From NCBI RefSeq assembly GCF_000373365.1, contig NZ_KB891234.1, positions 1 through 42,418 of the forward strand: DNA of 42,418 nucleotides, given 5' to 3'. Source of the DNA: Parafrankia discariae (lineage in GTDB: Bacteria > Actinomycetota > Actinomycetes > Frankiales > Frankiaceae). This document shows positions 1,592 through 42,418 of the stretch, piece by piece. Positions within the stretch are counted from its first letter, which is position 1. Each line of letters begins with the position of its first letter. The position numbers and the translations under genes were made by a program. The notes under the pieces were generated by a model that searched no databases, had not been told where the DNA came from, and saw only the letters and a list, made by a program, of their open reading frames with translations.

Positions 1592-1633
1592 GTGTAGTCG
1601 CTACACCACACCTACACCACACCTACACACATC
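1592..1633. promoter_or_regulatory. Operator-like array: 11-bp direct repeats plus inverted half-site
   Basis: CTACACCACAC occurs at 1601-1611 and 1612-1622, with a third, diverged copy starting CTACAC at 1623. The 11-bp spacing puts the copies on one face of the helix. The first copy also forms a dyad, GTGTAG-TCG-CTACAC, at 1592-1606. The array sits just upstream of the XRE start at 1566 and between the divergent genes. Autoregulation by the XRE protein is an inference. Confidence 0.6.
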
Positions 1634-1721
1634 TTGTAACTGATCCCGTACCTAAACAGACTTCATGTGTGCCGGCAGAGTAGCCGGACTTTCACCCCCG
1701 GCGCAGGAGGAGGGACACACG

Positions 1722-1928
1722 ATGGCTCCCGAACCCGAACGCGCCGGGGAGGGCCGCGATCCGACGCCCCCCAGGCCCGCCGACGGCACATCCGGGCCGG
1801 GCAGCGACGTCGACGCGGCCGGCCCCGGACGGCGGCGCCCGATCGCACCGCACGTCCGGGGCCGCACCCGAAGATCCGTCTTCGGGTGTCGTATCTGCCG
1901 CCGCCGGCAGTCCGGCGCCGGCGCCTAA
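1722..1928 (+). CDS. Small hypothetical protein, 68 aa, with C-terminal CxxC
   Basis: The ATG at 1722 follows a strong ribosome binding site (AGGAGG about 10 bases upstream). The product is 68 residues: an acidic, Pro/Gly-rich N-terminal half, then an Arg-rich C-terminal half ending in GCRICRRRQSGAGA. I recognise no domain. It is the first plus-strand gene after the operator and lies directly before the radical SAM gene, so it could be a substrate peptide for that enzyme or a small metal- or nucleic-acid-binding protein. Neither is demonstrated. An overlapping reading frame in the same region has no ribosome binding site and looks like a shadow. Confidence 0.45.
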   Translation: MAPEPERAGEGRDPTPPRPADGTSGPGSDVDAAGPGRRRPIAPHVRGRTRRSVFGCRICRRRQSGAGA

Positions 1929-1932
1929 GACC

Positions 1933-2019
1933 GGGGCCGCCAGGGGACGGGCGGCCCCACCAGTCCCCATCCCGACTGCGCCGGCTGGCCATCTGACGCG
2001 GTCGGGATGGGCCCAGCCG
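1933..2019 (+). promoter_or_regulatory. Tandem, partly alternative hairpins in leader of radical SAM gene
   Basis: Hairpin A pairs GGGGCCGCC (1933-1941) with GGCGGCCCC (1950-1958): 9 bp, loop of 8. Hairpin B pairs CCCATCCCGAC (1966-1976) with GTCGGGATGGG (2001-2011): 11 bp, loop of 24. Inside the loop of B, CGGCTGG (1982-1988) can instead pair with CCAGCCG (2013-2019). The second pairing crosses the first, so B and the alternative are mutually exclusive or form a pseudoknot. The block lies between the small ORF and the radical SAM gene. An attenuator or processing role is inferred. Confidence 0.5.
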
Positions 2020-2095
2020 CCTGCTCCGGTGCCGATCAGATCCGCCGGGGCAGGCGGCGCCTTGCGGAGTCACCCGCGACAGGAGGAGCACGATC

Positions 2096-2989
2096 ATGTC
2101 CACTGCGACCGTCGAGCCGACTACGTTCCTATGGTTGGAGATCACCGGGCGGTGCCAGCTCGAATGCACCCACTGCTACGCCGACTCGTCCCCCCTCGGG
2201 GACCACGGGACGATGAGCACCACCGATTGGCGCGCGGTGATCGACGCCGCCGCCGAACTCGAGGTGGGCATGGTCCAGCTCATCGGTGGTGAACCGACTC
2301 TCCACCCCGACCTACCCGACCTGGTCGACTACGCGCTGACGGCCGGCATCGACGTGGAGATCTACACGAACCTGCTCCACGTCACCGACGCGCTGTGGAA
2401 GGTATTCACCCGGCCGGGAGTCCGGCTGGCAACCAGCTACTACGCCGCCGACCCAGCCGGGCACGAGGCGGTCACCGGTCGGAAGGGCTCCCACGGCCGG
2501 ACCCGCGCGAACATCGCCGAAGCGGTCCGCCGCTCGGTGCCGCTGCGGGTCGGGCTGATCGACACCGGTAACGGCGGGGACGTCGATGCCGCCCACGCCG
2601 ACCTGCTCACCCTCGGCGTGTCCGACGAAGAGATCGGCATGGACCAGGCCCGCGGCTTCGGCCGCGCCGCCACCATCGACGTCGACCTGGGCGGCACCTG
2701 CGGGGACTGCGGGCACGGCACCGCCGCCATCGGCCCGGACGGCACCGTGACCCCGTGCGTGTTCACCCGGCATGCTGTCGCCGGGAACGTCCACTCGACC
2801 GCGCTCGGGGCGATCCTCGCGGGCGGGTCGTTCAGCGCGCAGGTGGAGCGCCTCGACCAGCTCCGCCGCACGACGACGGTGGCATGCAAGCCGAACCCGA
2901 AGTGCGCCCCGGCGTCGTCGTGCGCCCCGTCGTGCACCCCGTCGGACACGGGAAACAAGGGGTCGAACTGCAAGCCGAAGGGGAAGTGA
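2096..2989 (+). CDS. Radical SAM enzyme with Cys/Pro-rich C-terminal tail
   Basis: A 297-residue protein with a good ribosome binding site (AGGAGG before ATG 2096). The radical SAM cluster motif is C20-x3-C24-x2-C27 in GRCQLECTHCYAD, and the SAM-binding GGEP is at 64-67. A second Cys set (C202, C205, C221, in TCGDCG and TPCVF) resembles a reduced SPASM-type auxiliary cluster site. After about residue 262 comes an unusual tail with Cys264, 270, 276, 280 and 292 separated by Pro, Ser, Asn and Lys. I recognise this as an actinobacterial radical SAM family with Cys/Pro tails and no assigned reaction. The small upstream ORF is a candidate substrate, and the next gene starts 7 bases after the stop. 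Radical SAM membership is firm; the function is unknown. Confidence 0.92.
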   Translation: MSTATVEPTTFLWLEITGRCQLECTHCYADSSPLGDHGTMSTTDWRAVIDAAAELEVGMVQLIGGEPTLHPDLPDLVDYALTAGIDVEIYTNLLHVTDALWKVFTRPGVRLATSYYAADPAGHEAVTGRKGSHGRTRANIAEAVRRSVPLRVGLIDTGNGGDVDAAHADLLTLGVSDEEIGMDQARGFGRAATIDVDLGGTCGDCGHGTAAIGPDGTVTPCVFTRHAVAGNVHSTALGAILAGGSFSAQVERLDQLRRTTTVACKPNPKCAPASSCAPSCTPSDTGNKGSNCKPKGK

Positions 2990-2996
2990 TCAGCGG

Positions 2997-3860
2997 ATGA
3001 AGTGGTTGCCGGTCCAGGTCGATGACGCCTGGATGGAGACGGTCTGGCGCGACGGCGCGGCACGGCTCGACGTCGAGCCGCAGGCCACGCCGACGCCCAG
3101 CGCATCCGGGAACGTCATCGGCGGACCGGTGACCCACCGCGGGGAAACGGCGTGGCTGCGGGTCGCGCCGTTCATCGCGGATGCCATGGACCTGGAACCG
3201 TGGCGAGGCACGCGCGACGCTGCGGTGCTGACCGGCATCCGCAAGCCGGAGCTGCTCGACAGCACCGAGTGGACGACCGGCCCCGACCCGGTGCCGATCC
3301 CGGTCTGCGCCGAGCTGATGACCTACGCGTCCGACCCGGTCGCAACCCCCGGGGACCAGTACCTCGAGCGGCCGGTCGACCTGTCCCCGGGCTGGCTCGC
3401 TGGCCTGCGGACCTCGTTGGATGCGCTCGCCGGCCAGCCGACCACCCGGGAGATCTGGGGGAACCGGCCTGACCGGTACGCCAACCTGTTCCACGCCTTC
3501 GGCTGGTCGCTGCCCGCCGACGTCGTGCCGAGATGGGGGTCCACCGAGCATCTTGATCTGCACTGGGGCAACATCACCGTGCCGAACCTGATGATCCTGG
3601 ACTGGGAGCACTGGGGGGTCAATGTGGCCGGGTACGGGGCGGCCCGGTTGTACTGCACCGCGCTCGCTGTCCCCACGGTGGCCGCGCAGATCTTCAGTCT
3701 GTTCGCGGATGTGCTGGACAGCCCGTCCGGCCGGTACGCGATCCTCGCGAACGCCGCCGGCATCCTCAGCGACTTCACCCACTACCGGGACGAGGCCGGG
3801 CTCTGCCCGGCCCTTCATCGGGTCGCCCGCACGCTGCTGGAGCCGAGGCCGGGAGGCTAG
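2997..3860 (+). CDS. Aminoglycoside-phosphotransferase-like (APH/CHK fold) protein
   Basis: A 287-residue protein starting 7 bases after the radical SAM stop, so translationally close. The C-lobe holds the APH catalytic loop HLDLHWGN (H185, D187, N192), and the metal-binding Asp is in LDWEHWG (D202). The N-lobe has GNVIGG and a strand ending AWLRVAP. There Arg55 sits where the ATP-contacting Lys is expected, which is unusual. The family phosphorylates small molecules (aminoglycosides, choline, homoserine) or acts as a kinase-like binding protein. The substrate here cannot be read from sequence. The context suggests it acts on the product or precursor of the radical SAM step (inference). Confidence 0.85.
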   Translation: MKWLPVQVDDAWMETVWRDGAARLDVEPQATPTPSASGNVIGGPVTHRGETAWLRVAPFIADAMDLEPWRGTRDAAVLTGIRKPELLDSTEWTTGPDPVPIPVCAELMTYASDPVATPGDQYLERPVDLSPGWLAGLRTSLDALAGQPTTREIWGNRPDRYANLFHAFGWSLPADVVPRWGSTEHLDLHWGNITVPNLMILDWEHWGVNVAGYGAARLYCTALAVPTVAAQIFSLFADVLDSPSGRYAILANAAGILSDFTHYRDEAGLCPALHRVARTLLEPRPGG

Positions 3861-4067
3861 CGGGACTGGCGCGGGGTGTTCCACGGGGGATGATCGTTGA
3901 CCGATTGGGCGTGTCGTAACCCCGTGTCAGAGGGACTGGGGTCGGGCGGTGACCACGCCGAGACAGGTCCGGTGCGGGTGCCGCTCGACGTAGGTGGCCG
4001 TCAAGCTCGTCTATACATCCGCCCTCCGTGTCACAACTCCAGGCGGTCGGGTGGGTACCGTGCGCAC

Positions 4068-4595
4068 ATGACTCGGATCTTCGGTGTGGACGCTGAGACA
4101 GACGGGCTCTACGGCAGGGTGTGGGCAGTCGGCGCCGTCGTGCTCGACCCCGACACCGGCGCGGTGCAGGCGAGATTCCGCGGGCAGATCAGTCCTGGGG
4201 AGGTCACGGACCCCTGGACCCGGGCGCACGTGGTGCCGGTGGTGGACCTGCCGGTGTACCCCTCGCGGGCGGTGCTCCTAGACGGCTTCTGGGGGTTCTG
4301 GGAGAAGCACCGGGACGGCGTCGAGTGTGTCGCTGACGTCGGTGCGCCGGTCGAGGCGGGTCTGTTCCGGGCCGCGGTCGAGCAGGACGCGGCGGGCCGG
4401 TGGAAGCGTGGACCGTACCCGCTGCACGAGCTTGCGTCGGCGTTGTGGATGGCCGGGTTCGATCCGGACGTGGACCGGCGGGAGTTCTGCGGCCGGCCGG
4501 ATCTCACCGCGCATGACCCGGTGGATGATGCTCACGCAGCGGCGTTGTGCTGGGCCCGCCTCGCTGGGCTGCGAGTCGGTGCGACGGCCGGCTGA
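4068..4595 (+). CDS. DEDDh 3'-5' exonuclease-fold protein (DnaQ-like)
   Basis: About 175 residues. ExoI motif FGVDAETDG carries D8 and E10. An ExoII-like segment is ADVGAPVEAGLF, with Asp near residue 91. ExoIII is HDPVDDA, with H149 and D154. All catalytic positions of a DEDDh nuclease are therefore present. I chose the ATG at 4068 because protein-like sequence begins there; upstream in-frame sequence from about 3897 is low quality and the ribosome binding site is weak. The gene follows the phosphotransferase gene after about 207 bases that hold no clear gene, so it may be transcribed separately. It ends at the strong hairpin at 4607-4647. A larger DEDDh protein is encoded at 8621-9346 in the element operon. 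Nucleic-acid 3' end trimming is the likely activity. Confidence 0.8.
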   Translation: MTRIFGVDAETDGLYGRVWAVGAVVLDPDTGAVQARFRGQISPGEVTDPWTRAHVVPVVDLPVYPSRAVLLDGFWGFWEKHRDGVECVADVGAPVEAGLFRAAVEQDAAGRWKRGPYPLHELASALWMAGFDPDVDRREFCGRPDLTAHDPVDDAHAAALCWARLAGLRVGATAG

Positions 4596-4606
4596 GTCGT
4601 CCCGGG

Positions 4607-4647
4607 ACGGAAACGGCCCTGCACCCTGGGGGCAGGGCCGTTTCCGT
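4607..4647. terminator. Bidirectional terminator-like hairpin, 16-bp perfect stem
   Basis: ACGGAAACGGCCCTGC (4607-4622) pairs with GCAGGGCCGTTTCCGT (4632-4647) around a 9-base loop. It lies between the stops of two convergent transcripts (4595 plus, 4670 minus). There is no long U-run on either side, which is common in high-GC actinobacteria. Confidence 0.85.
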
Positions 4648-4669
4648 GTTCCGCGCGGGCCGGAGCCAG

Positions 4670-5026
4670 TCAGCCGGGCTTCGGCCCGCCGGCCGCGTCC
4701 AGACCGACGATCGTGGCGAGGTCGGGGAGGGCGCTGTCCGGTACCTGCTCGGCGAGCCGGCCAGCAGCTGCCATGATCGTGTAGATGGTCTCCGGGTCCC
4801 AGCGGGCGGCGTGCTCGGCGGGAAGCGCCCGCAGGAACGCGCCAATAGGCTCATCATCCGCCGAGGGGTCCAGGCGGACCTGGAGATAGACCGTTGTCCT
4901 AACGGACCGCCACCTACCCAAGAGGGAGAGCGCGGCTACGGACGCGGCCTTGGCCCCGATGTCCTTCGCCGCGCGGCGGATCTGGTCGCGGAGCACGGCC
5001 GGCGGGGCGGTCGGGTTGCCGCTCAC
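4670..5026 (-). CDS. Hypothetical protein, 118 aa
   Basis: Last gene of the minus-strand element operon. It overlaps the previous gene by 4 bases (ATGA at 5023-5026) and stops just before the terminator at 4607-4647. The sequence is mostly helical and mixed-charge (RDQIRRAAKDIGAKAASVAAL near the start, then a strand-rich TTVYLQVRLDP), with no Cys and no membrane segment. No family recognised. Strong GC3 bias and the overlap support it as a real gene. Confidence 0.7.
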   Translation of the reverse strand: MSGNPTAPPAVLRDQIRRAAKDIGAKAASVAALSLLGRWRSVRTTVYLQVRLDPSADDEPIGAFLRALPAEHAARWDPETIYTIMAAAGRLAEQVPDSALPDLATIVGLDAAGGPKPG

Positions 5027-11564: not shown

Positions 11565-12521
11565 CTAATAGCGGTCGTCCGTGGCCACGCGCTTGGCGTA
11601 CGTCAGCGCCCGGTCAGCGGCGGTCGCCTTGGCGTAGTGACGGACCATCGCCGTGGAGTCCCATCCCATGATTTCCATCAGGTCGCCCTCGTTGCCGCCT
11701 TCGCGTAGATGCCGGTCTGCATACAGGTGGCGGAACAGGTGCCAGTGCAGGTCTTGCGTGATCCCGGCTTGGCGAGCGCGCAGTTGGAGTACCCCGCGCA
11801 TCGCGCCGTACCCCAAGCCCTGAGTCCCCCGGGAGGAAAGCCACAGGGCGGGGATGCGGGCTGAGCGATGCCGGGCGCGCTCCCGGAGGTACCGGTCGAG
11901 CGCGTCGGCGGTCTTGTTCCCGAAGGTTACAGTTCGCGCCTTGTTGCCCTTGCCGAGGACCGTGATCCTGTCTCGCGTCATGTCGAGGTCGTCGAGGGTG
12001 AGGCCGACGATCTCTGCCCGCCGGGCGCCGGTCGAGAGGAAGGTCCGGATGATCGCGTAGTCGCGGCGGTCTCGGAACGTCTTGCCTGTGCGGCAGGTGT
12101 TGAGCAGGGCGACCACGGTCTCCTGATCAATTACGGGTCGCGGCTTTGCCTGCGCCCGGATAGGTTCAATCTTTGCCATTGGCGATACGTCTATATCTTC
12201 ACGATCAACAAGAAACTTGAAGAACGCTCGCATAATGAGACGACGGTTCTCGATCGTGACCGCTGCCAGCGTCCCCGAACTGCTCGCCAGTAGATCCTCG
12301 ATGCCATCACGGACCAGTCGGGTGTCCCCCGGCCCTGACGGCCTCTCTCCTTCGGGCAGCGACACGAGGTGGTCGACCATCCGCCCCAACGCGATCCCGT
12401 AGAGGCGGATGGTCGAGGGCGCGAGTCCTTTGATCTTCGCGTTGCGCCAGTAGCTGCGCAGATAGGACTCCCATTCGGCGCGGCAGGCGGCGGCTGACAG
12501 ATCGACCGGGGCAGGTGGCAT
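11565..12521 (-). CDS. Tyrosine recombinase/integrase
   Basis: A 318-residue XerC/D-like integrase. The N-terminal SAM-like core-binding domain (about 10-115) is followed by the catalytic domain with R167 (STGARRAE), K191 (LGKGNKART), H261-x2-R264 (HLFRH), W287 (GWDS) and the nucleophile Y296 (VRHYAKA). All catalytic residues are present, so it is probably active. The ATG at 12521 lacks a clear Shine-Dalgarno sequence. The gene lies about 140 bases from a dyad at 12661-12677 that marks the junction with chromosomal ppk2 sequence, the usual place for int next to its attachment site. Confidence 0.93.
   Translation of the reverse strand: MPPAPVDLSAAACRAEWESYLRSYWRNAKIKGLAPSTIRLYGIALGRMVDHLVSLPEGERPSGPGDTRLVRDGIEDLLASSSGTLAAVTIENRRLIMRAFFKFLVDREDIDVSPMAKIEPIRAQAKPRPVIDQETVVALLNTCRTGKTFRDRRDYAIIRTFLSTGARRAEIVGLTLDDLDMTRDRITVLGKGNKARTVTFGNKTADALDRYLRERARHRSARIPALWLSSRGTQGLGYGAMRGVLQLRARQAGITQDLHWHLFRHLYADRHLREGGNEGDLMEIMGWDSTAMVRHYAKATAADRALTYAKRVATDDRY

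Positions 12522-41989: not shown

Positions 41990-42418
<429 letters not shown>

Follow-up and report, generated by a model that had tools for sequence, protein, structure and literature searches.

The window, a stretch of 42,418 nucleotides of Parafrankia discariae (contig NZ_KB891234.1), contains a gene for a radical S-adenosylmethionine (rSAM) protein of 297 residues with a SPASM/Twitch-type half (2096–2989, + strand) and, starting 7 bases past its stop codon, a gene for an APH-fold kinase-like partner of the family termed here APH1 (2997–3860, + strand). The rSAM protein ends in an array of Cys-x-Pro (C-x-P) units, and this fused tail is, from sequence comparison, the strongest candidate for the substrate. 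We give a chance of about one in two to the reading that the unit is a peptide-modifying system with its substrate fused to the C-terminus of its own rSAM enzyme. Somewhat more tentative is the wider proposal that the enzyme is a self-modifying maturase, which would carry its own core peptide, an array of C-x-P units, in a C-terminal module that can be exchanged along with a second enzyme suited to it (PIMT-like methyltransferase or APH-fold kinase), and would represent a hidden peptide class of actinobacteria and plasmids. The rSAM/kinase pair itself is real: a partner of APH1 or of the family APH2 is encoded within 1.1 kb downstream on the same strand in 37 of 94 rows, so that rSAM enzyme and kinase form a recurring unit, in agreement with the preliminary description of this DNA, which had placed both in one cluster.

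The Cys-x-Pro tail

In the window the tail is encoded at 2885–2986 (+), comprises five C-x-P units (CKPNPKCAPASSCAPSCTPSDTGNKGSNCKPKGK) and has many Cys, Ser, Thr, and Lys residues. It was compared within a set of 94 rows, consisting of the rSAM matches of at least 150 residues (95 rows) minus the duplicate L182 (L numbers denote loci); L038, L040, L057, L058, L060, and L061 are outside the set, their rSAM match being short or broken. These rows are the best-scoring loci, not all matches, and the frequencies given here lean to relatives of the window.

In 90 of the 94 rows the rSAM protein terminates in a C-x-P array located past the last conserved cysteine of the domain. When each of these tails was counted from its first C-x-P and this first one was excluded, 312 of 323 tail cysteines in 87 distinct tails were found in C-x-P; shuffling the tails gave 64 ± 7 (maximum 95), and of the 631 cysteines of the bodies 2 were so placed. 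L039, L059, L134, and L135 are left out of this count and the tails of L132 and L127 were trimmed by hand. When the alignment defined the tail start, C-x-P accounted for 116 of 119 further cysteines (36 tails; shuffles 24 ± 4, bodies 1 of 232; L039, L059, L127, L134, and L135 left out, L132 trimmed). A tail has two to nine units, and the spacings from Cys to Cys range from 2 to 13. Across the searched loci, arrays of at least three units occurred in rSAM tails, in rSAM pieces at L134 and L135 and at about a dozen other places, which were judged by eye to be in non-coding frames and discarded. In the tail of L172 about 20 residues are duplicated in tandem (by eye). L206 and L208, whose tails are long, share an ending other than C-x-P, and L136 falls into the same group without recognised partner.

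The C-x-P tail is under purifying selection. For 17 pairs, some sharing a row, the proportions of synonymous (pS) and non-synonymous (pN) differences were 0.416 and 0.088 in the tail and 0.350 and 0.118 in the body, with a tail pN above 0.2 in three of the pairs. In the comparison of the window with L057, which has a frameshifted rSAM body, six synonymous changes and one non-synonymous change were counted over the 34 codons of the tail.

The tail might also be a metal-binding or additional Fe-S ligand region, a degenerate SPASM half. The first C-x-P is situated 39–56 residues past Cys 221, and in 73 of the 91 rows having one this distance is 39–44 residues, approximately where SPASM enzymes put further ligands; moreover, a profile aligns the first C-x-P near the PqqE cysteines, in a weak second domain. 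However, 36 of 90 tails have only two or three units, the spacing is variable, and two to nine units at variable spacing are difficult to reconcile with a single fixed metal site. In SPASM enzymes with two auxiliary clusters the second cysteine set is CX2CX5CX3C; the spacing in the window tail differs from this signature, the spacing varies across the tails, and 10 of 90 tails have only two C-x-P. The SPASM match of the window protein (PF13186, E 5.3e-6, 27.1 bits, cut-off 21.5) ends at residue 257, ahead of the tail, and metal binding gives no clear reason why the tail should go with the partner enzyme. We therefore regard this explanation as rather unlikely.

No common separate precursor was noticed among the loci, although no systematic search for small open reading frames (ORFs) was made. 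Candidates for a conserved separate precursor, such as c7, located upstream of a few loci, and a DUF397-like ORF (identified by eye), are present only in part of the set and were rejected. A peptide gene may be missing beside such pairs because the enzyme may carry its own peptide. Our literature search, conducted mostly outside subscription journals, retrieved no report of an rSAM enzyme fused to its core peptide or of a C-x-P tail.

Tail and partner enzyme

The gene behind the rSAM gene on the same strand codes for a PIMT-like methyltransferase in 43 rows, for APH2 in 22, for APH1 in 15 and for a protein of about 110 residues in 9, while no partner was recognised in 5. By eye, two of these five could be allocated, L132 to the small-protein group and L134 to the methyltransferase group. 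At L134 (4992–7292) the rSAM gene is split by a transposase gene, and the tail is found beyond it, just before the methyltransferase gene. An AAA ATPase gene accompanies APH1 in 11 of the 15 rows; at L034, L041, L120, and L121 it lies between the rSAM and the APH1 gene. The preliminary description had named an rSAM gene consistently occurring without the phosphotransferase as a point that would speak against it, and 57 of the 94 rows indeed have no recognised phosphotransferase. The methyltransferase of L047, the one that was scanned, matched PCMT (E 3e-13) and TIGR04188, the ATP-grasp peptide maturase system methyltransferase (E 1.4e-65, 222 bits, cut-off 380).

In a tree of the rSAM bodies (92 rows; two rows with a short body left out, the labels of L132 and L134 set by hand) the five partner labels need seven changes. 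The APH2 rows fall into a single group, as do the small-protein rows; methyltransferase and APH1 are mixed within the clade of eight rows to which the window belongs.

L053 was found to be a chimera in which the tail goes with the partner enzyme and not with the body. Its body shares 56–70% identity per segment with that of L048, whose partner is an APH1 protein, and 48% with that of L056. The tails of L053 and L056, by contrast, are the same at 23 of 24 residues, and their methyltransferases are 85% identical. On the DNA level, segments of the two loci are 42–73% identical before the tail and 73–97% identical from the tail on. A breakpoint scan restricted to the rSAM gene of L053 located the breakpoint at nucleotide 763, some 22 residues ahead of the first cysteine of the tail. 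Before this position L056-like letters stand at 68 of 226 informative sites, and after it at 45 of 49 (chi2 63; maximum 14 in 1000 permutations). L044 is a similar but weaker case: most segments of its body are nearer to the window, and its tail resembles that of L052 or L047. At L057 an N-terminal methyltransferase remnant directly follows the APH1 gene, a sign of partner replacement. Among pairs with 55–60% body identity the mean tail similarity was 0.33 for the same partner (212 pairs) and 0.16 for different partners (40 pairs), the pairs not being independent.

A tail that goes with its partner could also be a docking or regulatory linker which recruits this partner, the true substrate being another protein or peptide encoded elsewhere. 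Consistent with this, the tail type tends to follow the partner type and the tail ends are conserved for each partner, as with C-x-P-R near the end of 21 of 22 APH2 tails. A docking motif, on the other hand, needs no two to nine freely spaced C-x-P units, and nearly all tail cysteines are in C-x-P. We consider a docking tail unlikely, if the least improbable of the alternatives discussed here.

Several points weigh against the tail being a substrate that is exchanged together with its enzyme. For predicting the partner, the nearest tail has no advantage over the nearest body (85 of 89 each), and the adjacency of tail and partner gene could by linkage alone favour joint inheritance. The synonymous divergence between L053 and L056 is 0.50 in the tail (16 sites) and 0.53 in the body; because the tail value is high, the likeness of these tails also reflects constraint and not exchange alone. 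A first breakpoint scan of L053 (chi2 232) had run into the non-homologous partner genes and overstated the signal, so that it was not relied on, and L161 was set aside as a module swap, its body being a mosaic of unsure placing. Residues that the partners might modify are found irrespective of the partner: Asp in 87 of 90 tails and Ser or Thr in 90 of 90. Only Asp directly before Cys is enriched in tails that go with a methyltransferase (26 of 41 vs 12 of 49). Ser or Thr within three residues before the last Cys occurs in 22 of 22 APH2 tails, 4 of 4 APH1 tails, 2 of 11 tails with both AAA ATPase and APH1, and 27 of 41 methyltransferase tails, and partner-specific composition was rejected as too weak to prove target residues. 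The first tail Cys may instead be a ligand of the auxiliary cluster. Finally, no protease or exporter was noticed as a common neighbour, none having been searched by profile.

Enzyme families and the proposed modification

The window rSAM protein belongs to the radical SAM superfamily by both motif and fold. It matches Radical_SAM (PF04055) with E 4.4e-15, and the cysteines of its CxxxCxxC motif (Cys 20, 24, and 27; 2153–2176, +) are Cys in 91 of the 94 aligned rows, with a gap in the other three. Cys 202, 205, and 221 (2699–2758, +), which are Cys in 91, 94, and 93 rows, are probable ligands of an auxiliary cluster. With an auxiliary-cluster domain after the barrel the protein is a SPASM/Twitch rSAM enzyme. 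Its fold matches among solved structures are SkfB, SuiB, EpeE, and BtrN and also BlsE and DesII; the best match, by fold as well as by sequence profile, is SkfB, a maturase of ribosomally synthesized and post-translationally modified peptides (RiPPs). The AlphaFold model was built from six sequences and has a mean predicted local distance difference test score (pLDDT) of 70.4 with values below 50 in the tail, and disorder of the tail was not counted as evidence. Fold and cluster motifs are thus common to the window protein and the SPASM/Twitch maturases SkfB, SuiB, CteB, and EpeE. The substrates of these maturases are separate precursor peptides. In NCBIfam, the window protein's 25 best matches all remain far under their cut-offs.

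The partner contains the predicted kinase catalytic loop HLDLHWGN...LDW (3549–3608, +), the residues H185, D187, N192, and D202 of which are invariant in 18 aligned homologues. It shares this loop (HxDxHxxN...DW) with the APH phosphotransferases (PF01636), yet the window protein has no Pfam match and does not reach the gathering score of PF01636. Of the 18 proteins in the APH1 alignment, half of which come from loci without an rSAM match, 11 match PF01636 with an E value of at most 0.01; for APH2 one of three proteins is above the cut-off. Judged by catalytic motif and matching relatives, the partner fits the APH family. Its sequence WLRV presents an Arg where APH enzymes usually have the ATP-binding Lys. 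A profile search of the Protein Data Bank with the APH1 family gave weak matches only (best E 0.036), and the AlphaFold model of the partner (mean pLDDT 45.7) was not used. APH1-family proteins are also encoded at loci where no rSAM relative was found (for example L137–L148), and the kinase family is therefore wider than the rSAM system.

If the tail is the substrate, the rSAM body would modify the cysteines of the C-x-P units or residues next to them, probably by cross-linking, and the tail concerned could be its own or belong to a second protomer. The second enzyme would then act on the tail: a PIMT-like partner by aspartate methylation or isomerisation, for which the cross-linked C-x-P tail would supply the substrate, and an APH-like partner by phosphorylation. 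Afterwards the tail may be cut off as the product.

Quite improbable, in our estimate, is that the pair makes or modifies a small molecule which the APH-like enzyme phosphorylates as in aminoglycoside resistance. BtrN, BlsE, and DesII among the fold neighbours of the rSAM protein would fit this idea, as would the action of APH enzymes (PF01636) on small molecules and some plasmid neighbourhoods of rSAM relatives, which comprise a cytochrome P450 (L211), a DUF6415 natural product biosynthesis protein (L210), and a separate gene annotated as aminoglycoside phosphotransferase (L213). Yet 43 of 94 rows have as partner a PIMT-like methyltransferase, from an enzyme family that is known in RiPP systems, and a small-molecule substrate leaves the C-x-P tail unexplained.

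A substrate fused to its rSAM enzyme would bear on a published gap. In 2023, 249 rSAM-PAMT gene clusters were described for which no precursor was found (PMC10787088). Like the 43 rows with a methyltransferase, these clusters have an rSAM gene beside a PIMT-type methyltransferase gene and lack a precursor gene; the window is not of this two-gene type, as an APH-like gene takes the place of the methyltransferase gene. Section 8 of that publication mentions neither a tail as substrate nor a kinase partner. If the tail is the substrate, and provided that the 249 clusters hold the same rSAM family, their missing precursor would be the tail, which makes this reading a testable answer to the gap. 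In that case, a widespread class escapes genome mining directed at short, separately encoded precursors, and the fused tail, being swappable, would offer a convenient means of producing cross-linked peptides.

Among known systems, the borosins (OphMA) are similar in the fusion: in types I–III a single protein comprises both the modifying enzyme and the core peptide (PMC11285071). The borosin enzyme is a backbone-N-methyltransferase with a fused core, whereas the enzyme domain in the window is a radical SAM domain and its self-modification is only proposed.

Surrounding genes and distribution

The preliminary description had listed a divergent XRE gene, a set of repeats, a hairpin leader, the rSAM gene, and the APH-like gene 7 bases further on, and all of these are present. 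It had also proposed a 68-residue ORF (1722–1928, +) as the peptide modified by the system. Peptide modification by the rSAM system is plausible, but the tail is the better candidate for the modified peptide. The ORF does exist, with its strong ribosome binding site, its CxxC and its position upstream of the rSAM gene. By tblastn at E 1e-3, however, no homologue was detected in 99 loci around rSAM relatives (54 of them only 3.3–3.9 kb long), including a second copy of the pair in the same genome (L042), so the ORF is not conserved beside homologous rSAM genes; a first search had used E 1e-4, 45 rSAM loci, and 18 loci around APH-like relatives. With composition statistics switched off and E up to 10, there were 2795 matches in the 99 loci, of which the best were of low complexity and mostly ran through stops. 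Furthermore, the G+C content by codon position is flat in the ORF (0.78/0.76/0.84) compared with the rSAM gene (0.66/0.55/0.92), that is, the codon bias of its neighbours is missing. Because of the flat profile and the absent homologues there is no support for counting the ORF among the genes of the system, and it was rejected as the target of rSAM enzyme and kinase; very probably it is not the substrate, and we see hardly any chance for the opposite.

The divergent gene (304–1566, –) encodes an XRE-like or NsdA-type regulator with profile matches to HTH_3 (weak, E 0.12) and NsdA_fam_reg of NCBIfam (E 1.7e-11, 44 bits vs cut-off 75) and with homologues at 7 of 45 rSAM loci. Next to it, the direct repeats CTACACCACAC with a GTGTAG half-site (1592–1631; CTACAC at 1601, 1612, and 1623, GTGTAG at 1592) are a possible operator, at which the regulator may control expression. 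Two strong hairpins precede the rSAM gene at 1964–2013 (–33.8 kcal/mol) and 2014–2060 (–36.1 kcal/mol), both on the + strand. The second one has DNA matches upstream of the rSAM genes at the related loci L055 and L057, where an ORF resembling a DUF397 regulator (by eye) is located between hairpin and rSAM gene. Downstream of the pair, family profile scans of the ORFs 4068–4595 and 4670–5026 gave no match above cut-off, and membership in the unit was not found for them.

Of the 393 genomes sampled from the class, 32 contained an rSAM relative at E ≤ 1e-40; at E ≤ 1e-45 relatives were detected in 78 of 297 genomes of one family, presumably the Pseudonocardiaceae, and in 50 of 295 of one genus, presumably Streptomyces. 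The named matches are eight loci from Streptomyces, Actinopolyspora, and Frankia. Relatives were also present in 27 plasmid records (22 Streptomyces, two Amycolatopsis, two Embleya, and one Paraburkholderia, the latter lying outside the actinobacteria), with the plasmid copies annotated as radical SAM protein followed by protein-L-isoaspartate O-methyltransferase, phosphotransferase, or methyltransferase domain-containing protein. Examples are the Streptomyces anthocyanicus plasmid NZ_CP109276.1, where a methyltransferase goes with the rSAM protein, and the Amycolatopsis japonica plasmid pAmyja1, where it is a phosphotransferase. Two prophage records of Mycobacterium abscessus contain a relative as well. 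In Mycobacterium phage prophi68-1 (MW584157.1, L209), a relative is found close to the integrase, where the prophage ends; its annotated gene stops early, and a C-x-P array follows in frame past the stop codon.

The rSAM protein of the second rSAM/APH1 pair in the Parafrankia genome, L042, is 66% identical to that of the window. Its gene has one in-frame TAG, and no stop occurs in the part that encodes the C-x-P tail. The window also carries, at a distance of about 8 kb to the cluster, a gene resembling a tyrosine-recombinase integrase (11565–12521, labelled by eye), and the cluster may therefore sit on an integrated element. The start of a GroEL-like chaperonin gene (42129–42418, by eye) is situated at the end of the window.

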